From Gemmatimonadota bacterium (lineage in GTDB: Bacteria > Latescibacterota > UBA2968), in NCBI GenBank assembly GCA_002714465.1, contig PAXL01000018.1, forward strand, positions 32,866 through 52,534: DNA of 19,669 nucleotides, given 5' to 3'. Shown piece after piece: positions 3,934-19,574 of the stretch. Every line of letters starts with the position of its first letter. Within the stretch, counting starts at the first letter, position 1. The notes beneath the pieces are model-generated. The model was not told where the DNA came from. It made no database searches and saw only the letters and a list, made by a program, of their open reading frames with translations. Both the position numbers and the translations under genes were made by a program.

Positions 3934-3962
3934 TTGACCCCTCTGAACCGTCCCCCTATCTT
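3934..3962 (+). promoter_or_regulatory. Candidate sigma-70-type promoter for the lipoprotein-DUF350-aminopropyltransferase operon
   Basis: TTGACC (3934-3939), exactly 17 bases, then TATCTT (3957-3962). Both hexamers are close to consensus and the spacing is optimal. Initiation near 3969 would leave a leader of about 65 bases before the TTG start at 4034. Confidence 0.5.
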
Positions 3963-4033: not shown

Positions 4034-4711
4034 TTGAACGGTTTGAACCGCGCTTTACTTATCGTCCTATACCTGACACTCGCCGTCGGTTGCGGAACAC
4101 GCGACCCCGTCGTCGAAATGCAGGAAAGCCTAGCATCTGCCCCGGACTACACGATCGTCCTTGAAGATATGCAGGATGAGGGTCTCGTCTTCACCAACTA
4201 CTATCACCGATACCGAGTCATCCAAGGCGAGCGACAGGTCCAGACGGACTGGGTCGAGGTCGAAGAGGAGGTCTACCGCAAATACGAGCCCTTCCTCGGG
4301 ATGGCCCTCGTCTCGAAGTCCGAAGTGGACGGCGTAAACAGCAACCCGCACCCACCGGGCTACCATCACGTGGGTAACTCCACTTACGGATACTGGGGCG
4401 GTGGAGGATTCTGGATGTGGTATGGGCAGTATGCGATGATGCGGAACCTTCTTGGCGGTGGATTCGGACGCGGAATCTCGCGCGGCGATTACGACGACTA
4501 CCGAAACGTCAACCGTCGCGGAAGACCCTACTACGGGAATGGCGATTACGGGACAAACGGGAAGTTGACGAAACAAACACGCCCGACTTTCTACCAGCGC
4601 CGTCAAGCAAAAATGAAGCAGCGACAGAGCAGCTTCTCACAGAAGGCCCAGAGCCGGTTGGGTAGAACCCGCACCGGGTTTGGTGGCCGAAGCAGAGGAT
4701 TTGGAAAATGA
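4034..4711 (+). CDS. Gly/Arg-rich lipoprotein of the PspA-associated module
   Basis: 225 residues starting at TTG 4034, which has GGAG five bases upstream. An N-terminal hydrophobic signal (residues 6-19) ends in LAVGC, a lipobox with Cys20 as the lipidated residue, so the protein is probably anchored in the envelope. Residues 36-110 form an acidic globular part (TIVLEDMQDEG, TDWVEVEEEVY). The middle is aromatic and Gly-rich (YGYWGGGGFWMWYGQY). The tail is basic, ending in GFGGRSRGFGK. The acidic-then-Gly/Ser/Arg layout recalls DUF1190/YjfM-YgiB proteins that accompany DUF350 in enterobacterial yjf clusters, but I cannot confirm homology by eye. Its stop overlaps the DUF350 start by ATGA, so the two are translationally coupled. 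First gene of the plus-strand operon. Confidence 0.75.
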   Translation: MNGLNRALLIVLYLTLAVGCGTRDPVVEMQESLASAPDYTIVLEDMQDEGLVFTNYYHRYRVIQGERQVQTDWVEVEEEVYRKYEPFLGMALVSKSEVDGVNSNPHPPGYHHVGNSTYGYWGGGGFWMWYGQYAMMRNLLGGGFGRGISRGDYDDYRNVNRRGRPYYGNGDYGTNGKLTKQTRPTFYQRRQAKMKQRQSSFSQKAQSRLGRTRTGFGGRSRGFGK

Positions 4712-5568
4712 TGCTCGACGATTTGGTTTCCAGCGCCATCTACCTGGTCTCCTCCTTCATCCTGTTCTGGATCGGCAAGTTGGTCTACGACTGGACCACG
4801 CCGACCTACAACGTGAAGGAAGAGCTCGTAGAGAAGGACAACACCGCGCTGGCCATCGCCCTAATTGGTTACTACTTCGCTCTCGTGCTCGCGATCGGCG
4901 GCGTAATGTCTGGCGACTCTCGAGGTCTTGACGGGGACCTGATCGACATCGCGATCTACGGCCCGCTGACGATCATCCTCCTGAACCTCTCGCGCATCCT
5001 GAACGACCGCCTGATCCTTCGCAAATTCAGAGTCCGCGACGAGCTCATCGAGGATCAAAACACAGGTACAGGCGCCGTCGTCTTCGCCGGATACATCGCG
5101 ACTGGACTCGTCATCAACGGAGCCGTCTCCGGCGTCGCCGTCCTCGACGCCACGGGCTCGGTCATCAGCACTGTCGTCTTCTGGGCCCTCAGCCAGATTG
5201 CGCTGATCGCCGCAGAGTTCATCTACGATACCATTACGTCGTATGACATCCACGAAGAAATCGAAAGAGAGAACGTCGCTGCTGGAATCGCTTTCGGCGG
5301 CGCGCTCATAGCCCTCGGGAACATCCTCCGGCACGCTGCCTCGGGCGACCTGATCACCTGGTCGATCTCGCTCCAAGACTTCGGCGTCGAGCTGGCCTTG
5401 GGCCTGATACTCCTCCCGATCATCCGCTTCCTGTCCGACAAGATCCTGATCCCTGGCAGAAGCCTCACAGACGAGATCGTTAATCAGGAGAACCCCAACG
5501 TCGGTGCCGCCTTCATTGAGGCCTTCTCCTACATCGGCGCCTCCTTCCTGATCGTCTGGTCTCTGTAG
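4708..5568 (+). CDS. DUF350 (YjfL-like) integral membrane protein with four-fold internal repeat
   Basis: 286 residues, roughly eight hydrophobic segments. The motif [aromatic]-x-[VI]-[KR/H]-[DE]-E-[LI] followed by an acidic/Asn turn and a membrane helix recurs at about residues 34-69 (YNVKEELVEKDN), 107-142 (FRVRDELIEDQN), 179-213 (YDIHEEIEREN) and 252-286 (SLTDEIVNQEN), with a spacing of 72-73 residues. DUF350 domains usually come as one or two such units, so this is a doubled form. The family's function is not established. It is repeatedly found with PspA, DUF4178 and polyamine-type enzymes, and a channel or membrane-sensor role has been suggested. The ATG overlaps the lipoprotein stop (ATGA). 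Next gene starts within about 35-86 bases, consistent with one operon. Confidence 0.88.
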   Translation: MMLDDLVSSAIYLVSSFILFWIGKLVYDWTTPTYNVKEELVEKDNTALAIALIGYYFALVLAIGGVMSGDSRGLDGDLIDIAIYGPLTIILLNLSRILNDRLILRKFRVRDELIEDQNTGTGAVVFAGYIATGLVINGAVSGVAVLDATGSVISTVVFWALSQIALIAAEFIYDTITSYDIHEEIERENVAAGIAFGGALIALGNILRHAASGDLITWSISLQDFGVELALGLILLPIIRFLSDKILIPGRSLTDEIVNQENPNVGAAFIEAFSYIGASFLIVWSL

Positions 5569-5630
5569 TCGTCCCCAAGCCCCTCCTCCCTCGCTCCTTG
5601 GCTTGAATCAGGAGACGCGGGAGGAAGGAC

Positions 5631-5657
5631 TTGAAACGCCTCACCCTTTCTTCATGA
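5631..5657 (+). CDS. Possible translation-coupling leader mini-ORF
   Basis: A TTG preceded by GGGAGGAAGG begins an eight-codon frame (reads as MKRLTLSS) whose TGA overlaps the ATG of the aminopropyltransferase as ATGA. The main start otherwise lacks a Shine-Dalgarno sequence. The short spacing (two bases) between the site and the TTG weakens the case. Confidence 0.2.
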   Translation: MKRLTLSS

Positions 5658-7198
5658 CCTCACGCACAAACCAAAGCCGTCTCCTCAAAACCTGTCTCTT
5701 CGCCACCGGCCTCTCCGGCATCGTCGCAGAATTCACCCTCTCCACGCTTGCCAGCTATATCCTCGGCAACACAACCCTTCAGTGGACACTGATTATGTCC
5801 CTGATGCTGTTTACGATGGGTCTCGGAAGTCGTCTCAGCCGATACACCACAGACAACCTGCTCGACGTCTTCATTACCATCGAGTTCGTCCTGTCCACCC
5901 TGTGCGCGACGTGCGCGGTCGCAGCCTACTTCGGGACCGCCTGGCTCGGCGAATCCACTGTCGTGATCTACAGCTACGCTGGAGCCATCGGACTCCTGAT
6001 CGGGATGGAGATCCCTATTGTCGCCCGAATGAACGACGCCTACGAGGGACTCCGAACGAACATTGCATCGGTGATGGAGAAAGATTACTACGGCGCCCTG
6101 GTCGGCGGACTCCTCTTCGCCTTCTTCGCACTCCCAAAGCTGGGTCTGACATACACACCTATAGCGCTCGGAGCGATCAACTATGTCGTCGCCTCAGCGC
6201 TCTACTGGCGATACCGCGACCTCGCAGCCTATAAGACGAGACTCCACATCGCCTTCTGGAGTGCAGGCGCGGGCATCTTGGCGCTCTCTATCTTCGCGAA
6301 ACCGATCCTGCTGTTCGGTGAGCAAAGCCAGTATAAGGATCGCATCGTGTTCACGGCACAGACACCCTACCAGAAGCTCGTCATCACGGAGTGGCAAGAT
6401 GACCACTGGCTGTTCATCAACGGGAGTATCCAGTTCAGCACCTACGACGAGGAGCGTTATCACGAGCCTCTGGTTCACCCAGCGATGGGTGTCGCCGGTG
6501 ACATCAGTCGGATCCTGATCCTTGGGGGAGGCGATGGACTTGCACTTCGAGAAGTACTGAAGTACGGATCCGTCTCCAACGTCACACTCGTCGACCTAGA
6601 TCCGAAGATGACACGATTGGGATCGGAGAACCCAATCCTTGTCGCCGCCAACGACGAGGCTTTCTTAGACGAGCGTGTATCCGTGATCCATCAGGACGCC
6701 GGCACCTATGTTCGCGAGGCCGGGCAGATTTTCAACGTCATCATCATAGACCTCCCCGACCCGAAGGGCCCCGATCTCGCCCGTCTGTATGCGCGAGATT
6801 TCTACCGAGACTGCAAAAGAGCCCTGGCACGAGAGGGCGTTCTGGTCACACAGGCTTCAAGCCCGCTCCACGCCCCCAAAGCATTCCAGTGCATCCTAAA
6901 GACCGTCGCGAGCGCCGGTCTGTCCGCTGTCCCGTACCACACAACGATCCCCACGATGGGCACTTGGGGCTGGGTCATTGCACAGAAAGCCGATCTTGTC
7001 GGATCGACGGAACTTAAAGGTCGGCTCTCGAGACTGCAGTTCGAGATTGTCGAGACCGACTTCATCAACAACGAAGCAATTGTGGGGATGCTGCAATTCT
7101 GGAAGGGCGCCTTCGACGGCATGGGAACGCTCGCCATCAACACGATGATGGACCCCGTCGTCGACAAGTACTACCGAGAATCGGAGTGGGGGTTTTAG
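5654..7198 (+). CDS. Membrane-fused spermidine synthase-like aminopropyltransferase
   Basis: 514 residues from the ATG at 5654; an in-frame TTG at 5603 would add 17 residues but has no ribosome site. The first ~210 residues hold about seven membrane segments (GLSGIVAEFTLSTLASYILG onward). The C-terminal half is a Rossmann aminopropyltransferase: TPYQKLVI, INGSIQFSTYDEERYHEPLVHPA, the GGGDG dcAdoMet-binding motif, VDLDP, and the catalytic IDLPDPKGP loop with its Asp. Family enzymes transfer an aminopropyl group from decarboxylated AdoMet to an amine. The fusion to a polytopic membrane domain is a known subfamily and suggests a membrane-proximal or transported acceptor. A TTG mini-frame (5631-5657) with a strong GGGAGGAAGG site ends in TGA overlapping this ATG and may couple translation. 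Third gene of the operon with lipoprotein and DUF350. No AdoMet decarboxylase gene is present in the window. Confidence 0.9.
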   Translation: MTSRTNQSRLLKTCLFATGLSGIVAEFTLSTLASYILGNTTLQWTLIMSLMLFTMGLGSRLSRYTTDNLLDVFITIEFVLSTLCATCAVAAYFGTAWLGESTVVIYSYAGAIGLLIGMEIPIVARMNDAYEGLRTNIASVMEKDYYGALVGGLLFAFFALPKLGLTYTPIALGAINYVVASALYWRYRDLAAYKTRLHIAFWSAGAGILALSIFAKPILLFGEQSQYKDRIVFTAQTPYQKLVITEWQDDHWLFINGSIQFSTYDEERYHEPLVHPAMGVAGDISRILILGGGDGLALREVLKYGSVSNVTLVDLDPKMTRLGSENPILVAANDEAFLDERVSVIHQDAGTYVREAGQIFNVIIIDLPDPKGPDLARLYARDFYRDCKRALAREGVLVTQASSPLHAPKAFQCILKTVASAGLSAVPYHTTIPTMGTWGWVIAQKADLVGSTELKGRLSRLQFEIVETDFINNEAIVGMLQFWKGAFDGMGTLAINTMMDPVVDKYYRESEWGF

Positions 7199-7233
7199 GG
7201 GTTGACGATTAAGACGGACTCAAGGTGTCCGCG

Positions 7234-8349
7234 CTACAGGCTGCTTTTCTTCTCTCTTCCTTCTACCCCGCCTTTTTCCGGTAATTCCGCCACATACTGA
7301 TACTCCATCTCTGTCTCCTGCCGTTTCTGCACATCCATAATGTGCTTCCAAGCCTCGACCAATCCATTCGGACACCAGGGCATCTCGTGCTTGATCCGCC
7401 TATGCAGGGCGCCTAGCCGGTAACACGGGACCGCCGCATACATATGGTGTTCCGTGTGGTAATTCATGTGCCAGTACAGAAACTGCACGATCGGATTTAG
7501 ATAGATCGTCCGGCAGCAAAGCCTGAAGTCAGGAACGGTGTCCACTAACCCAATGTGCTGTGTTGAATTGCACAGATTCTGCAGCCATCGCCCGAACATC
7601 TTCGGAAAAGTAACCACGAGTACAACTATCCAATAACCGGTCCCGATAGCGACAGCCGCGATCGCCACGTGACCTATGAGAAGGAACCGTTCCCACCGAG
7701 TGTAGAGCGCCTGCCGCTCAGGATCTGCCTCTGGGAGGATCAACTTCGACCAGGGATCCTGAGGTAAGTGTCCCTTGAATGACCGCCACTTGCCCTTCAG
7801 AGTGTCCCAAGGCAGCGTGAAGTTGATGATGTGTTTCTTCCAGATAGCCGCCATATCGTACTTCGTCGGGAGAACCACTTCCTGGTCGTCCGGCGGATGC
7901 AGCGCATACTTGTGGTGCTCCGTGTGACTCGCCCAGAAGTGATGGTGGTTGTGCCAGCCTAGGAAGGAGAACACGCGCAGGAACGACCGATTCAGCCATT
8001 TCTGACGAAATACCGAATCGTGGATCAACTCGTGGAAAGCGTTGATAGTGAAGGCCCACGAATGCCCGTTAGCGAAAACGAGAAGCACGGTCACATACCA
8101 AGGCCAGTTGAAGTATGAGTAGATCGCGAGTCCGGCCACACCGAGCATCACCGCGAGATACCCGAGTGTCTGAGCAAACCCAAGGAAATTGCTCTTTCGG
8201 TTAAAGGCCGCGAGCTCATCCTTCGTGAGCGAAGGACGATACCACTCGATCCGGGTCTTCTTCTGCGGCTTGCTGTAGACCGGCCCTTCGGTCAATACCT
8301 CATCATCGTTGAAAGCCGCTTGCTCTAGATCCTTCGTTGCGTCTGCCAT
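7234..8349 (-). CDS. Membrane fatty-acid desaturase (three-histidine-box family)
   Basis: 371 residues from the ATG at 8349. Upstream in-frame sequence exists but is the out-of-frame shadow of a decayed gene, and the family's N-terminus fits this start. Histidine boxes are FHELIH (H106 to H110), SHTEHH (H142-H146) and YHTEHH (H298-H302), with an extra NSTQH; these bind the di-iron centre of integral-membrane desaturases/hydroxylases. Hydrophobic stretches at about 60-95 and 222-250 fit the four-helix membrane layout. The enzyme probably introduces a double bond or hydroxyl into acyl chains of membrane lipid, changing fluidity. It is convergent with the aminopropyltransferase (35 bases apart) and downstream of the DUF2170-PspA-DUF4178 unit, but a terminator and a pseudogene lie between, so co-transcription is doubtful. 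Confidence 0.92.
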   Translation of the reverse strand: MADATKDLEQAAFNDDEVLTEGPVYSKPQKKTRIEWYRPSLTKDELAAFNRKSNFLGFAQTLGYLAVMLGVAGLAIYSYFNWPWYVTVLLVFANGHSWAFTINAFHELIHDSVFRQKWLNRSFLRVFSFLGWHNHHHFWASHTEHHKYALHPPDDQEVVLPTKYDMAAIWKKHIINFTLPWDTLKGKWRSFKGHLPQDPWSKLILPEADPERQALYTRWERFLLIGHVAIAAVAIGTGYWIVVLVVTFPKMFGRWLQNLCNSTQHIGLVDTVPDFRLCCRTIYLNPIVQFLYWHMNYHTEHHMYAAVPCYRLGALHRRIKHEMPWCPNGLVEAWKHIMDVQKRQETEMEYQYVAELPEKGGVEGREKKSSL

Positions 8350-8351
8350 CT

Positions 8352-8943
8352 CTATCTCTCTAGCCAGGCCTCCGGCCCGACACCCTCTATCCGCAGTGGA
8401 CCTGCACCTTCGCTCGGCTGTATTGACTCCAGACATCCGACCATCTTTTGCCACTCTCGTCGCCGGCCCACTGCATCCCGCGAGATTTCTGTGTAGCTTC
8501 CTTCCAACAAACGTGGTTTCGCCGGCACGGTAAGCCCGTTTATCTGCCCCATCATTCCGACATCGTCGTGAGTGATGCCCACTCGCGCCGACATCCCGAG
8601 GGGGCCATCCGTGACGTTTCCTTCCCAGACCCAGTTCTCCAGTTCGTCCCCCTGAACCAACTCGACGGTTCAAGCCTCGTACGCAACGAACGGCCTGTCC
8701 GAGTCACCCATAATAAACAGGTTGTTCGCAATGATACAGTCCTTCGGTGCGGTCCCGTTCAGGTGTTTGGAGTGGTTGATCCCGACCCGCAGACCGGGCT
8801 CGTATCCCACGAATATGTTGAACGCCACGAACGCCCGCTCTGTCTGGATATACAGGTCATCCGGGGGTTCCGTCCATCATACCGACGCCGTATGAGCGGC
8901 TCTTCGAATCGCGACTGCCTTTGATCCAACGTCGAATGGACCC
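8352..8943 (-). pseudogene. Decayed parallel beta-helix polysaccharide lyase (chondroitinase-B/PL6-like), C-terminal remnant
   Basis: Reading the minus strand, one frame gives a coherent stretch: DDLYIQTERAFVAFNIFVGYEPG, then LRVGINHSK, CIIANNLF, an in-frame TGA at 8672-8670, and then, without loss of sense, TVELVQGDELENWVWEGN and an ending GPLRIEGVGPEAWLER. The IIANNLF and WEGN strings are characteristic of right-handed beta-helix rungs, and the ending resembles the PLTxxDVGPxWL tail of chondroitinase-B-like proteins. Upstream, around 8870, the sense continues only after a one-base shift (YDG in another frame). The original gene's N-terminus is absent. At least one nonsense codon and one frameshift make this non-functional. 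It ends 2 bases before the desaturase ATG and fills the gap after the DUF4178 terminator. Family assignment is by eye. Confidence 0.55.
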
Positions 8944-8978
8944 CAAACTCTCGATCTTCTGCCTTACATCCCCAATAC

Positions 8979-9013
8979 AAAACGGCCCACCCACAAATTT
9001 CGTGAACGGGCCG
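8979..9013 (-). terminator. Rho-independent terminator after DUF4178
   Basis: On the minus strand, CGGCCCGTTCAC pairs over 12 consecutive positions (three G-T wobbles) with GTGGGTGGGCCG around a 7-base loop, followed by TTTTGT. It begins 23 bases after the DUF4178 stop, so it closes the DUF2170-PspA-DUF4178 transcript. Confidence 0.8.
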
Positions 9014-9035
9014 CCGTCTTTCCAATCTCGATCTC

Positions 9036-9587
9036 CTACGTTCCCGGCAGGATATTGTTGAACTGATACGTCTCAACCACTTCTCCCGCCGAAGCCGCAA
9101 ACTCGTTCTCTCCCCACTGCTCTATCAGAAGTGCCAGTTTCTCGGACTCATCCACATACGACCAGTTGATAAACTCCTGCCCCGATCCGCCTGGGTTAGA
9201 GCCGCCATCCTTGTAGAAATGTCCTGCATCGCTCGACTCCGCTTCATATTCTTTGCCTTCGAAGTGAATAACACTCGGCGGATCCTCATTCTCCAAGATC
9301 TCCACCCGCACATCCTCTTCGATGTCAGTCACCGCCACTTTGCGATACAGCGTCCAGCTCTCCGCATCATCTACCTCAAGCTCCAGATATCGCACCTCGC
9401 TCGACGACGTCAGTTCCCACTCATCCGTCCACTCGCCGTCGTAGTCGTAGCGATTGTGCGCCGTCACTTCCCAAGCCTTCAGGTCGTAATCGACGTAATA
9501 ACCCTTCTTCAACCTCGACAGCGTCAGATCGCTGAGCGGATCGATCCCGGGCTCTTCTTCCTTCTTCTTGAAGGGATTCCAGTCCAT
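9036..9587 (-). CDS. DUF4178 domain protein, PspA-module partner
   Basis: 183 residues. N-terminal MDWNPFKKKEEE is followed by a beta-rich domain: GYYVDYDLKAWEVTAHNRY, a charged TDEWELTSS, YLELEVDD and WTLYRKV. The C-terminal block is SSDAGHFYKDG, EFINWSYVDES, LALLIEQWGENEFAASAGE and YQFNNILPG, which is the hallmark of the DUF4178 family as found beside PspA. No signal peptide or membrane segment is seen, so it is probably cytoplasmic. The biochemical role is unknown; conserved neighbourhoods with PspA, DUF350 and aminopropyltransferases point to envelope stress or a polyamine-linked modification. Third gene of the minus-strand unit, 74 bases after PspA, and closed by a strong terminator. The ribosome site before the ATG is weak. 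Confidence 0.87.
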   Translation of the reverse strand: MDWNPFKKKEEEPGIDPLSDLTLSRLKKGYYVDYDLKAWEVTAHNRYDYDGEWTDEWELTSSSEVRYLELEVDDAESWTLYRKVAVTDIEEDVRVEILENEDPPSVIHFEGKEYEAESSDAGHFYKDGGSNPGGSGQEFINWSYVDESEKLALLIEQWGENEFAASAGEVVETYQFNNILPGT

Positions 9588-9661
9588 AGACTATTGATGA
9601 TATGTATGCGTGGAAAAGAAAATTGGTTCCTCAACCTTCACATCTGATATCCTCACCTCTT

Positions 9662-10363
9662 CTATCCTTCAATCCCCATCTTCGCCTTAAGAGCGGCCAG
9701 CCTCGCATCACTCGACCCGCCACCAGCCAGCGCCTTGTCGATCTCTTCATCTGCCGACGTCGGCTGTCCGGCGAGGTCGCCGTAGGCCTCTGCCAGAGAC
9801 TCGTCTTCCTCAACTCGCTCCTTCATCCGTTCGAGCATCGCGATCGTCCCCGATGACTCCACTTTCGCCAGCTGCTTGTTGATCTTCTTCGTCGCAGCGG
9901 CGGTCTTGGCCCGAGCACGCAGCGTGATCAGATCGTTCTCGTAGCTTGCAATCGTCGACTTCAGCTTGTCCACCTGGCTTTGCAGGTTCGCTGCCGTCGC
10001 TTCCTGCTGTTGGGCATCGACACCAAGCTGTGCTGCCCGTGTCGCAGTGTCTTCCTTCTTCGACAGCGCCTCCGTCGCGAGACGATCCGCCGCCGCCGGA
10101 TCCAGATCTCCTGACTGAACCTTCTGGAGCAGAAGCATCGCCTTCCGCTCGTAATCCGCCGCGGCGTGCTCGTTTTCCTCCGACTGCTTCTTCAGCCGAA
10201 TCGCCTGACCTTTCACCTGAGCGAGGCTCGTCATTGCGTTCTGGAGATCCTTTTTCAGATCTGTGATCCCCTGCTCGGTCATCTTGATCGGATCCTCAAA
10301 CTTGTCGAGGGCCGAATTGACTTCCGCCTTACCCATTCTGAACATTCGTTGAAAAATACTCAT
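9662..10363 (-). CDS. pspA: PspA/IM30-family membrane-repair protein
   Basis: 233 residues, almost entirely helical coiled coil, starting MSIFQRMFRMGKAEVNSALDKFEDP, the typical PspA/IM30 amphipathic helix 0/1 that contacts anionic membrane. DPIKMTEQGITDLKKDLQNA and the long heptad region to about residue 170 follow, then an acidic/Gly-rich linker and a short terminal helix (LAALKAKMGIEG). PspA proteins have the ESCRT-III fold, polymerise on damaged membranes and limit proton leakage. GGGAG about 8 bases before the ATG supports the start. The neighbours DUF2170 and DUF4178 match the YjfJ/YjfI type of arrangement rather than the pspABC-pspF regulon: no PspB, PspC or PspF is present. It is expected at the cytoplasmic face of the inner membrane. 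Confidence 0.95.
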   Translation of the reverse strand: MSIFQRMFRMGKAEVNSALDKFEDPIKMTEQGITDLKKDLQNAMTSLAQVKGQAIRLKKQSEENEHAAADYERKAMLLLQKVQSGDLDPAAADRLATEALSKKEDTATRAAQLGVDAQQQEATAANLQSQVDKLKSTIASYENDLITLRARAKTAAATKKINKQLAKVESSGTIAMLERMKERVEEDESLAEAYGDLAGQPTSADEEIDKALAGGGSSDARLAALKAKMGIEG

Positions 10364-10384
10364 CTATCGTCTCCCATCAGTCTT

Positions 10385-10398
10385 GGCGGCAGCCCGCC
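10385..10398 (-). repeat. Small hairpin in the DUF2170-PspA intercistronic gap
   Basis: GGCGG and CCGCC pair perfectly around a 4-base loop, about 22 bases before the PspA start. There is no T-tract, so it is not a terminator; it could affect transcript stability or PspA translation. A second weaker pair, TCACA/TGTGA, lies a few bases upstream on the transcript. Confidence 0.3.
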
Positions 10399-10450
10399 TT
10401 TGACTCACAGCCTTTGGTTTGTGATTTGACAATTGACACCGGGCTTAGCC

Positions 10451-10846
10451 CTATCTGTTCGTATACGCCAACAGTTCCTCCGCATTTTCCGCTAGCGCCA
10501 ATCCGAGCGCATTGATGGACCCTTCCAACTCGCTGCGATCCAGCGTATCCAGACGAAGCGTATCCCGGAACAGCACGACCCCCATCTCATCATCCACCGC
10601 AAAAGCCCCGTGAACCATAGTCCGATTGATCTCGAGGAGCCTCTTGTAGAGGTCCCCCGGATCGGACGGAACCTGAATGATCGCCTGTTCGAGGATCAGA
10701 ATCGGATCTTCGCAGTCGATGATCAGGTTATTCAGCCCGCTTTCTTCGTCGTTCACTACAACGAGCCCTTCGCTCTCGTCCTCCTGGGACATCGGGAGCT
10801 CAAGCTCTTGCAGGTATCCCTTGACCTTTTCGAATGCTTCTGGCAT
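10451..10846 (-). CDS. DUF2170 (YjfI-like) protein
   Basis: 131 residues, acidic and soluble. Key strings are GLVVVNDEESGLNNLIIDCEDP, ILEQAIIQVP, GDLYKRLLEINRTMVHGAFAVDDE and VVLFRDTLRLDTLDRSELEGSINALGLALAE, which match the DUF2170 family typified by E. coli YjfI. The alpha/beta pattern resembles type III secretion chaperone-like or CesT-like folds, so a chaperone or adaptor role for PspA is conceivable; that is inference. AGGAG lies 6 bases before the ATG. It is the first gene of the minus-strand unit, 87 bases upstream of PspA and directly downstream of a good promoter that carries a palindrome. Confidence 0.88.
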   Translation of the reverse strand: MPEAFEKVKGYLQELELPMSQEDESEGLVVVNDEESGLNNLIIDCEDPILILEQAIIQVPSDPGDLYKRLLEINRTMVHGAFAVDDEMGVVLFRDTLRLDTLDRSELEGSINALGLALAENAEELLAYTNR

Positions 10847-10938: not shown

Positions 10939-10950
10939 GTTTCTAGAAAC
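10939..10950. promoter_or_regulatory. 12-base perfect palindrome overlapping the -10 of the PspA operon promoter
   Basis: GTTTCTAGAAAC is a perfect dyad spanning into the -10 hexamer of the minus-strand promoter at 10948-10975. The position would let a dimeric protein block RNA polymerase. Confidence 0.4.
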
Positions 10951-10975
10951 TTATGCCTCTGCGAACGGCTGTCAA
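10948..10975 (-). promoter_or_regulatory. Sigma-70-type promoter for DUF2170-PspA-DUF4178
   Basis: On the minus strand: consensus TTGACA (10970-10975), 16-base spacer, TAAGTT (10948-10953), about 100 bases upstream of the DUF2170 start. No sigma-54 GG-N10-GC pattern was seen, in contrast to the enterobacterial psp operon. Confidence 0.5.
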
Positions 10976-17394: not shown

Positions 17395-18747
17395 ATGTCC
17401 TACGACTTCGTCGTTGCCGGCGCCGGAATCGGCGGCCTTGTCGCTGCTAGATCAGCACAGGAACACGGTGCTCGCGTGCTCGTCATCGAGAAAGCGGATC
17501 GTATTGGCGGGTCCGCCGCTGCCTCAGGTGGCACCGTATGGTGCGCTCGCGACATCAATGAATGGCTGAAGGTTCAGCCTGATGGTGATACGGAACTCGG
17601 GCAGGCCCTGATCGACGGTTTCGAAGAGGGCATCGAGTGGCTGACAAGCCAGGGTGTCGTCGTCACGCCTGTTCCAGACCGACCATATAAGTTCCTGCGA
17701 AACATCTACCGTCTCGACCCGGACCCTCGGACCGCTCTCACGACGCTCTACGACAGAATCCAATCCGAAGGCGGCGAGGTCCTCTGCCAATCTACGCTCC
17801 GGGACATATTTACCCAGGACGGACGGATAGACTCCGTCTACATCAGCACATCGGACGGCGATCGACGGATCGAGACCCTTTCACTTGTACTCGCTACGGG
17901 AGGCTTCCAAGCGAATCCCGAGTTGAGAGCGCGATACATGGGTCGCTGGGCAGACCGAATGATCGTGCGCGGCGTCCCTGAGAACACAGGGGACGCTTTC
18001 GAGGCTGCCCTTCGAATCGGCGCATCTACAGCGGGGGCCTTCGGAAGGTTCTACGGGCACTATCTTCCAGCCGCCCCGGCTCAGGTCAAGCTCCACAACT
18101 TCGTCCTCGTCAAACCGGACTTCAGCGAGTACGCCGTTACGGTCAATCTGCTCGGAGAACGGTTCGACGACGAGTTCCTAGGCGACGAAGTCACCGTTCA
18201 CGCGCTGATCCACCAGCCGGAGGGTATGGGCGTGCTCGTATTTGATCAGCATATCCGCTCGAACATGGAGCAATACTCCCAGTGGCCCACGGCGGATGTC
18301 GATCGTGTTGTCAACATCCGGGATGCCGGGGGAGAAGTCCTCGAGAATGACACGCTCAGGTCGCTCGCCGCGCAAATGGCGTCGAAGTGGGGTGTTCCTC
18401 CTGGTGTGTTTCTGGAGACGATCGAGGGCTACAACACAGCCTGCGAGGCGGATGACGCGTCTATGCTGTCGATCCCGAAGTCTGGCGGTCTGATCAAGAT
18501 CGCTGAACCGCCCTTCTATGCGATTCGCGTCGTAGCAGGAGTAACGTTCACCTACGGAGGGGTCAAGGTGGACTCCGAAGCCCAAGTCCTCGATCGATCG
18601 GGCGGCCCGATCGGCGGACTCTACGCTGCCGGTGCAGACTGTGGCGGGATCTACACGCGCGGCTATACGGGAGGACTGTCTATGGGACTCGCCTTCGGCC
18701 GGCTCGCAGGGCGAAACGCAGCAGCCTACGCAAGGAGAAATTCTTGA
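17395..18747 (+). CDS. FAD-dependent oxidoreductase, fumarate reductase/ketosteroid-dehydrogenase flavoprotein type
   Basis: 450 residues. MSYDFVVAGAGIGGLVAA is the dinucleotide-binding motif (GAGIGG, 9-14). VLVIEKADRIGGSAAASGG continues the FAD site, as in FAD_binding_2 proteins. LVLATGGFQAN is the second FAD signature, and the C-terminal GGIYTRGYTGGLSMGLAFGRLAGRNAA closes the flavin pocket. FTYGGVKVDSEAQVLD corresponds to the family's GGLxxDxxxxVLD strand. Members include fumarate reductase flavoprotein, tricarballylate dehydrogenase TcuA and 3-ketosteroid dehydrogenases; the substrate here is unknown. No heme domain and no signal peptide are seen, so it is cytoplasmic. Its stop overlaps the next gene by four bases, and the start has no Shine-Dalgarno. 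Confidence 0.92.
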   Translation: MSYDFVVAGAGIGGLVAARSAQEHGARVLVIEKADRIGGSAAASGGTVWCARDINEWLKVQPDGDTELGQALIDGFEEGIEWLTSQGVVVTPVPDRPYKFLRNIYRLDPDPRTALTTLYDRIQSEGGEVLCQSTLRDIFTQDGRIDSVYISTSDGDRRIETLSLVLATGGFQANPELRARYMGRWADRMIVRGVPENTGDAFEAALRIGASTAGAFGRFYGHYLPAAPAQVKLHNFVLVKPDFSEYAVTVNLLGERFDDEFLGDEVTVHALIHQPEGMGVLVFDQHIRSNMEQYSQWPTADVDRVVNIRDAGGEVLENDTLRSLAAQMASKWGVPPGVFLETIEGYNTACEADDASMLSIPKSGGLIKIAEPPFYAIRVVAGVTFTYGGVKVDSEAQVLDRSGGPIGGLYAAGADCGGIYTRGYTGGLSMGLAFGRLAGRNAAAYARRNS

Positions 18748-19574
18748 GCAACGATTGGGAACCACTTGAGCCTGATATCAAGACCATCCTGTCAGCAGAC
18801 CCGGATCCGCTTCGCAGTCTTGCGGGTGGAGAGACACCCGCGATAGTTTTCCGGAACGCCTACAGCGAGGCAGATAGCACGGGACTGATCGACCGGTTCA
18901 TAGAAAAGGGTCTAATTGTTGACCCATCCGGCCCCGACGCAGGAGGGCAAAAGAAGCGGATCGACATTGGTACGAGTCTGGCGCAGCGCGGAAACGACCA
19001 GGAAGCCTTCTTCGAACACGCTATGGAGACAAAAAAACTCTTCGGCACCCTTTTCGACGGTTTCGCGAACCCGGTCACCTTTATCTACGAGTCGCTCGCT
19101 GCCCTGGACGTCAACAAGCAGGTCGTCACAGCGCACGAGAAGGATGACCGAGAGTATGGTCCGGCCATCTTCAGGACTCACTACGAAGGTCATCGCTACC
19201 CACCACACATCGACCACGTCACCCTCCGCGAAAAGCGCTTCGACTACGAGGTCTCGCGCTTCAAGCATCAGTTTGCGGGCGTACTGTGCATGCAGAACAC
19301 GGCGACCACGGGCCAGGCGACCCAGGCGATTCTCCATCGCTGCTTCTGGACCGAAGAGATCCAACCGCACATCGCGAACGATTCCTTCTATAACTACGCC
19401 GCTGATAACGACATCCCGAAATTCCAAGTGGACCTCGAACCCGGCGACCTCTACTTCTTCAACACAGGCCTGATCCACGAAGTCCCGGCTTTGGAAGGCG
19501 ACGATCCCCGCATAGTCCTCGCCGTCTTCATCGGCTACTCCGAAGACGACCCCGAAATTTTCGTCTGGTCTTAA
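18744..19574 (+). CDS. 2-oxoglutarate/Fe(II)-dependent oxygenase-like protein
   Basis: 276 residues starting with TTG in a TTGA overlap with the FAD gene's stop, with AAGGAG 7 bases upstream, so translation is coupled. RYPPHIDHV gives the metal-binding His155-x-Asp157, and FFNTGLIHEVPAL gives the distal His245, with Arg256 in DPRIVLAVFIGY as the 2OG carboxylate anchor. This is the HxD...H facial triad of the cupin-fold dioxygenases. PGDLYFFN between them is the usual strand before the distal His. Such enzymes hydroxylate or desaturate a small molecule, lipid or protein with O2 and 2-oxoglutarate. The subfamily is not recognised. Pairing with an FAD dehydrogenase suggests two steps on one substrate. 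Confidence 0.85.
   Translation: MSNDWEPLEPDIKTILSADPDPLRSLAGGETPAIVFRNAYSEADSTGLIDRFIEKGLIVDPSGPDAGGQKKRIDIGTSLAQRGNDQEAFFEHAMETKKLFGTLFDGFANPVTFIYESLAALDVNKQVVTAHEKDDREYGPAIFRTHYEGHRYPPHIDHVTLREKRFDYEVSRFKHQFAGVLCMQNTATTGQATQAILHRCFWTEEIQPHIANDSFYNYAADNDIPKFQVDLEPGDLYFFNTGLIHEVPALEGDDPRIVLAVFIGYSEDDPEIFVWS

Follow-up and report, generated by a model that had tools for sequence, protein, structure and literature searches.

A PspA–CesT/Tir module with a membrane aminopropyltransferase and a Gly-Lys-ended lipoprotein in a Latescibacterota-like genome

What does a membrane-bound aminopropyltransferase act on when it is encoded beside the envelope-stress protein PspA? The question is raised by a stretch of 19,669 nucleotides from a genome deposited as a Gemmatimonadota bacterium (GenBank assembly GCA_002714465.1, contig PAXL01000018.1, forward-strand positions 32,866 to 52,534; the whole stretch is called the window below, and coordinates are counted from its first letter). 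Two convergent units, 4034–7198 on the plus strand and 10846–9036 on the minus strand, encode a lipoprotein, a DUF350 membrane protein and a membrane-fused aminopropyltransferase (SpeE) on one side and a CesT/Tir-like chaperone, a PspA family protein and a DUF4178 protein on the other. Polyamine genes are found repeatedly next to PspA. Ravi et al. (2024, mSystems, PMC11237479) propose a monitoring role for the system, directed at polyamines or, as one option they name, at “aminopropylation of other substrates”. We show that these genes are a Latescibacterota-like copy of a published module, which joins PspA to CesT/Tir, a membrane aminopropyltransferase, a DUF350 protein, a lipoprotein and DUF4178. 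What is new here, and testable, is the C-terminal lysine of the lipoprotein and its association with the membrane aminopropyltransferase. The identity of the module, together with the mechanism we infer for it, makes up our best explanation of the locus, to which we assign a probability of about 0.5.

A published gene set around PspA

All six genes lie where a preliminary description, made from the DNA letters and translations alone, had placed them, as seen from open reading frame (ORF) coordinates and Pfam and NCBIfam profile matches, and the named families score well above curated cut-offs. The plus-strand unit opens with the exported lipoprotein (4034–4711, plus strand; 225 aa, TTG start), which has a signal peptide, a cysteine at position 20 and the C-terminus -RGFGK; it gave no Pfam or NCBIfam match at E≤0.01 and is probably the Ctha_1186-type lipoprotein of Ravi et al. 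Its frame overlaps by 4 nt that of the DUF350 or YjfL-type membrane protein (4708–5568, plus strand; PF03994, 202 bits, two DUF350 stretches), and SpeE begins 34 nt further on (5603–7198, plus strand; NF002956, 551 bits against a cut-off of 472). On the minus strand, adjacent genes encode the CesT/Tir-like chaperone CesT_Tir_1 (10451–10846; PF22550, 158 bits) and the PspA/IM30 family protein (9662–10363; PF04012, 159 bits), followed by the DUF4178 protein (9036–9587; PF13785, 72 bits), with intergenic gaps of 87 and 74 nt. The chaperone had initially been labelled DUF2170, a label rejected at the Pfam level because PF09938 gave no match at E≤0.01 and PF22550 fits instead; Ravi et al. place DUF2170 likewise in the CesT/Tir superfamily. 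A PDB search with the chaperone returned PspA/Vipp1 matches only, at E 0.4 or worse, which we count as chance.

The statement in the preliminary description that these families recur together around PspA agrees with the “second major group” of CesT/Tir–PspA systems in Ravi et al., which comprises CesT/Tir, PspA, a spermidine synthase fused to seven transmembrane helices (7TM), an eight-helix (8TM) DUF350 protein, a lipoprotein and DUF4178. The window shares with that group the adjacent CesT/Tir and PspA genes, the 7TM-fused spermidine synthase, DUF350 and DUF4178. Its DUF350 protein has two PF03994 stretches in 286 aa and is probably of the 8TM form. The published group is described as a single operon of six to seven genes, sometimes with an RHH regulator. 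The window instead divides the genes between two convergent units, and the proteins scanned in it included no RHH protein; we regard the one-operon form as typical, not essential. With the classical PspABC/PspF phage-shock system the window shares PspA. PspB, PspC, PspF, DUF2491 and an ATP-grasp ligase had been reported as missing, and none was found among the Pfam-scanned window proteins, a set that does not cover every frame, chiefly short ones; DUF1190 was absent among the proteins scanned.

The nearest locus to the window, L001, has a SpeE that is 74% identical, and both fall within a well supported group of the SpeE tree that includes loci named Latescibacterota. L001 and L002 are labelled Gemmatimonadetes yet sit among these named Latescibacterota, and the labels may be outdated.

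The lipoprotein end and the membrane aminopropyltransferase

Relatives of the module were compared in 80 loci, the best 80 of 102 by SpeE similarity. The presence of SpeE in every one is thus a matter of selection, and many of the loci come from short contigs. ORFs were begun at the first possible start codon, which often makes N-termini overlong and leaves C-termini unaffected. The lipoprotein was found by tblastn in 64 of the 80 loci. Its final Gly-Lys (the Phe-Gly-Lys codons lie at 4700–4708, plus strand, in the window) is present in 59/59 members of the lipoprotein cluster, the window included, and in six further loci with a tblastn match whose frame the ORF clustering had missed, making 65/65. 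The same end closes 10/10 lipoproteins from loci fetched afterwards, 43/44 from a genome set that partly overlaps the earlier loci, and 106/109 database homologues; 12 of the 44 genome copies lie on contigs whose length differs from that of the SpeE contig, and all 12 end in Gly-Lys. As background, 1208 other ORFs, spurious ones included, comprise 135 that end in Lys and seven in Gly-Lys (48 and four, respectively, among the 504 that belong to clusters of at least three loci). Across the 59 lipoprotein rows, no Lys column but that of the last residue is filled throughout, and a 16-row alignment has Cys20, G224 and K225 invariant (16/16). No comparable shared pair was seen at the C-termini of DUF350, SpeE, DUF4178, PspA or CesT; many SpeE proteins end in a hydrophobic residue followed by Tyr. 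The Gly-Lys end was not found described in the open-access literature searched or in the passages of PMC11237479 consulted.

An AlphaFold model of the lipoprotein (mean pLDDT 67, pTM 0.47) predicts an ordered domain at about residues 25–105, with pLDDT of 79–93, and a basic, mostly disordered tail, largely below 60. The tail is variable, with a net charge of +10 to +19 over the last 60 residues. The lipoprotein also accompanies SpeE beyond the loci above: in 46 genomes from other phyla, which were picked for SpeE and mostly lack PspA or CesT at the SpeE locus, it was found in 45, CesT_Tir_1 in 43 (42 over cut-off) and DUF350 in 40 (39 over cut-off).

Lysine ends recur in distant SpeE operons on plasmids. 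A SpeE match was present in 49 plasmid records. Nine of these were examined, and the Rhodovulum one was set aside for its partial SpeE. In 8/8 of the loci kept, the frame immediately preceding DUF350 (in Ensifer, the one immediately preceding SpeE) ends in Lys: -SSGK in Alteromonas, -ESGK in Ensifer, -RHGK in Gemmatirosa, -SHK or -THK in three Novosphingobium and -RVK in two Tritonibacter. The first plasmid ORF lists favoured Lys ends and were not blind; the unselected description is the position directly before DUF350 or SpeE. The DUF350 frame beside the Lys-ended one is PF03994 in 7/7 tested loci, and in Ensifer frames resembling DUF350 and S-adenosylmethionine decarboxylase (AdoMetDC) lie further upstream of SpeE. 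The Alteromonas protein might be taken for an unrelated Lys-ended type, but the hidden Markov model (HMM) of the lipoprotein family identifies it as a distant member (E 9e-15); this HMM gave no other match at E≤1 in the eight loci. The other types therefore number four, all of them small membrane proteins of 47–78 aa with one hydrophobic stretch by eye. A basic tail as a feature common to the Lys-ended proteins is weakened, the Novosphingobium one being acidic by eye. AdoMetDC is encoded in three of the plasmid operons (Alteromonas, Novosphingobium ES2-1 and Ensifer), and near the module in 6/80 loci (an ORF cluster with one member Pfam-tested).

SpeE is quite probably an active aminopropyltransferase. 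Its AlphaFold model (pLDDT 89, pTM 0.65) has seven long N-terminal helices, the 7TM part spanning residues 19–243 (5657–6331, plus strand), and a C-terminal spermidine-synthase domain; the best Foldseek match is 6qmm (E 2e-16). The donor-site and catalytic residues Y286, H287, E288, D383 and D386 are kept in 80/80 homologues, both of these aspartates lying in the motif DLPDP (residues 383–387; 6749–6763, plus strand), and D311 is kept in 74, with Glu in the remaining six. In spermidine synthases the motif PTY(P/S/T)(S/T)G has an acceptor-side role. At its place the window SpeE has PTMGTWGW (residues 450–457; 6950–6973, plus strand), and across the 80 homologues the Tyr position is occupied by Met (42), Leu (36) or Phe (2), the PTYPSG-like motif being replaced by T(M/L)G(E)WGW in module SpeE proteins and by PSFG(E/D)WG in the plasmid relatives. 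Because the solved Pyrobaculum SpeE (7xif) has IPSFG aligned at this place, the changed motif alone names no acceptor, nor does it exclude amine acceptors.

The Pyrobaculum enzyme, the spermidine-synthase fold and the retained catalytic residues speak for plain polyamine synthesis, an account close to the published view of Ravi et al. In it, SpeE would produce at the membrane a spermidine-like polyamine that acts as stabiliser or as a signal read by PspA/CesT, and the Gly-Lys end would serve another purpose such as sorting. We find this account rather doubtful. It leaves the Lys ends unexplained, and among the matches listed, four of the five genomes read (L081, L082, L084 and L085, not L083) have a second SpeE that keeps PTY(P/S/T)(S/T)G and that, by coordinates, forms one reading frame with AdoMetDC elsewhere in the genome.

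The charge distribution of SpeE bears on where it would work. Lys plus Arg counts average 2.9–3.2 in the N-terminus and in loops 2-3, 4-5 and 6-7, and 0–0.1 in the other loops, so by the positive-inside rule the catalytic domain is placed outside. We hypothesize that the lipoprotein would be exported and then anchored by its Cys, that its flexible tail would present a free C-terminal Lys, and that the 7TM aminopropyltransferase would move aminopropyl groups from decarboxylated S-adenosylmethionine (dcAdoMet) onto that lysine, so that the end would resemble a polyamine and become more cationic. The condition of such an envelope reporter could be relayed across the membrane by DUF350, joined by a potassium channel in many relatives, to the CesT/Tir–PspA pair, which would assemble on the inner face and stabilise the membrane. 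As a reading of sequence patterns, the C-terminal lysine is a tentative candidate for the substrate of SpeE, at well below even odds, and signalling to PspA through DUF350 strikes us as fairly doubtful.

A strong rival to aminopropylation of the lysine comes from peptidoglycan tethering. In E. coli the link between Braun’s lipoprotein Lpp and peptidoglycan runs through the C-terminal Lys of Lpp. By the same logic the lysine of the window lipoprotein may be a Braun-type anchor whose side chain an L,D-transpeptidase links to peptidoglycan; the lipoprotein would then be a tether or tension sensor, and SpeE would make free polyamine or regulate tethering. Cys20, the long flexible tail and the invariant last Lys all fit, and there is the E. 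coli precedent of Lpp, which is covalently joined to peptidoglycan by LD-transpeptidases. A C-terminal lysine is what the two lipoproteins have in common, and that of the window differs from Lpp in its -GK end, its ordered N-terminal domain and its tie to SpeE. A tether does not predict that tie, and a terminal Lys is found too in the four other small membrane protein types of SpeE operons, in some cases only about 25–30 residues past the membrane helix by eye. We consider tethering unlikely on this evidence. Were it correct, many phyla would have a Braun-type lipoprotein linked to a stress system.

Several observations weigh against the aminopropylation of the lysine. First, tethering would explain the C-terminal Lys of the lipoprotein without SpeE. 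Second, the 27 residues after TM7 average 4.5 Lys plus Arg, opposing an outward position of the catalytic domain, and an outward domain needs dcAdoMet outside the cytoplasm, where to our knowledge it is known in no organism; because an outward domain would share its side with the lipoprotein yet lack a known supply of dcAdoMet, we see the two orientations as evenly balanced. An inward-facing SpeE would have to modify the tail before export. Third, one of the 44 genome copies lacks Gly-Lys (in G108, which has two further Gly-Lys-ended copies), as do three of the 109 database homologues, frame-shifted by eye, and a loose lipobox pattern fits just 50 of the 59 lipoproteins. Fourth, the four small-protein types, Novosphingobium and Tritonibacter each counting as one, are too short to be proved unrelated (best mutual E 0.045 outside Novosphingobium). 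Finally, DUF350 is missing in six and CesT in three of the 46 genomes from other phyla, and in one genome (G098) SpeE is present but the lipoprotein gave no match; the count covers only genomes chosen for SpeE.

E. coli offers a parallel to the proposed pairing of SpeE with the lipoprotein. The yjfIJKLMC cluster, the “third group” of Ravi et al., shares with the window a CesT/Tir-superfamily protein, PspA (YjfJ), DUF350 (YjfL), a tailed protein (YjfM) and a polyamine enzyme (YjfC). In the same source it has DUF2170 (YjfI-type) where the window has PF22550, and it has DUF2491 and a four-helix (4TM) DUF350. Its enzyme is a peptide-spermidine ligase instead of SpeE, and its tail ends in -GG instead of the -GK of the window. 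YjfM ends in -WGG and lies beside YjfC, which is annotated as a peptide-spermidine ligase. A 2023 study by Pederick et al. is cited in this connection. Among 113 rows of YjfM homologues, 59 end in -GG, most of these in -WGG; the other 54 look truncated, shifted or fused by eye. More generally, membrane aminopropyltransferases of PspA-linked operons might be protein modifiers that act, outside or at the membrane face, on the free C-terminal Lys of exported, anchored partners, and with YjfC/YjfM would represent one of two routes to a polyamine-ended tail, a generalisation that we advance tentatively and at less than even odds. The Gly-Lys-ended lipoprotein family and the other Lys-ended small membrane proteins supply a concrete, testable candidate for the substrate. 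If the proposal is true, a new bacterial envelope modification would join polyamine chemistry to PspA membrane repair.

Co-occurrence and layout across genomes

The suggestion in the preliminary description that the genes form one functional system is very probably right. CesT is present in 41 and DUF350 in 43 of the 64 genomes compared from the phylum of L001 (38 with both, three with CesT only, five with DUF350 only and 18 with neither; Fisher p 9e-9, relatedness not corrected), and in 35 of the 38, among the matches listed, CesT, PspA, DUF4178, SpeE and DUF350 all lie on one contig. CesT_Tir_1 was found in 0/14 control genomes. The phylum of L012, a Desulfobacteraceae record, was represented by 158 genomes; nine have CesT and ten the membrane SpeE, and all nine CesT genomes are among those with SpeE; without the centre genome the counts are eight with both, none with CesT only, one with SpeE only and 148 with neither (p = 1e-12, relatedness not corrected). 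Three of these nine CesT matches are weaker (E 1e-23 to 2e-8). The preliminary description had named halves far apart without co-occurrence as a sign against a single system; in other phyla the halves do lie far apart, yet they still co-occur. CesT and SpeE are on the same contig in three of the nine L012-phylum genomes and on different contigs in six, those of G147 being 107 and 540 kb long. By a reading of positions by hand, strong CesT and DUF350 matches occur together in 35 of the 46 genomes from other phyla, on one contig in nine (with over 40 kb between them in two cases) and on different contigs in 26, where real distance is indistinguishable from contig breaks.

The division into two convergent units had been read as a device for regulating a sensor arm and an enzyme arm separately, with promoters at 3934–3962 and 10948–10975. 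The opposite-strand units and a terminator-like hairpin behind DUF4178 (9015–8981, minus strand; 16 pairs with a T-rich tail) would suit such a device. This hairpin is the sole part of the 686-nt gap that matches L001 (blastn, 34 nt, 85%, E 2e-4); because seven terminator-like hairpins were found in the scanned region against 4.8 ± 1.7 expected, the hairpin alone is little proof, and its conservation is the better argument. The promoter pair did not survive as a sign of split regulation. The site at 3934–3962 has 9/12 matches, in a scanned region with three such sites against 3.7 ± 1.7 in shuffles, and 10948–10975 was not among the sites listed by the promoter scan; by eye it reads TTGACA-16-TAAGTT, its −10 element matching at 3/6. 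The upstream regions of both units showed no blastn conservation in place in L001. Because the promoters are at chance level and the upstream regions unconserved, separate regulation of the two arms is not supported.

Comparison of layouts points the same way. In 46 genomes of the phylum of L001 with CesT, DUF350, DUF4178 or a long SpeE, 19 layouts are convergent and 19 have CesT and SpeE in one direction, among the matches listed, so that about half of the module-bearing genomes of the phylum are one-directional; two are split over contigs, and six lack CesT or SpeE, several of these seemingly at contig ends. The count uses only the PspA and SpeE copies near the module, and the CesT match of G037 spans 40 positions only. 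In a tree of 97 SpeE proteins, from which L011 and L097 were dropped since their SpeE frame was not recovered, the two layouts need two changes among 45 scored rows; the other 52 are unscored for want of PspA or CesT in the locus, and layout labels were set by hand. Layout thus follows the SpeE tree, with a second clade of the phylum one-directional, and a regulatory purpose of the convergence is very improbable. The convergent layout also occurs in Binatia, Scalindua and deltaproteobacteria. That spread, together with the published gene set, overturns the earlier idea of a lineage-specific version of the module.

Further genes accompany the module in its relatives. The most frequent of them encodes a potassium channel (25/80 loci) and was not seen in the window; of two members tested against Pfam, one has RCK/TrkA domains and the other is an ion channel without them. 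In the one-direction clade (L088–L095), where gene labels come from blastp to clusters, there is an extra FAD amine-oxidase-like gene, several loci have a DnaJ-domain gene, and some have a potassium channel or AdoMetDC. PspA-family matches occur in 48 of the 64 genomes of the phylum of L001, most module-bearing ones having two to four, one of them in the module.

The desaturase and other neighbours

Between the two units lies a fatty-acid desaturase gene (7234–8349, minus strand; PF00487, 92 bits). The preliminary description correctly set it in the middle by position, but as a part of the module it is rejected: a hairpin stands behind DUF4178, a desaturase match is found in 1/80 SpeE loci, and among the 64 genomes of the phylum of L001, 43 have a desaturase homologue and only G001 has it inside the module. 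We judge it a passenger, a neighbour that the nearest relative also has. The stretch that separates the desaturase from DUF4178 (8350–8980) contains broken minus-strand reading frames that look like gene remains, and two pieces of the gap (8355–8876) gave no Pfam match. Neither structured RNA at gathering scores nor tRNA was found in the analysed sequence.

Near the far end of the window, at 18744–19574 on the plus strand, is an iron/2-oxoglutarate oxygenase related to the halogenase WelO5 (PF22814, 75 bits). By eye it has H-I-D at the place where halogenases have H-x-G, and a hydroxylase is more likely than a halogenase.

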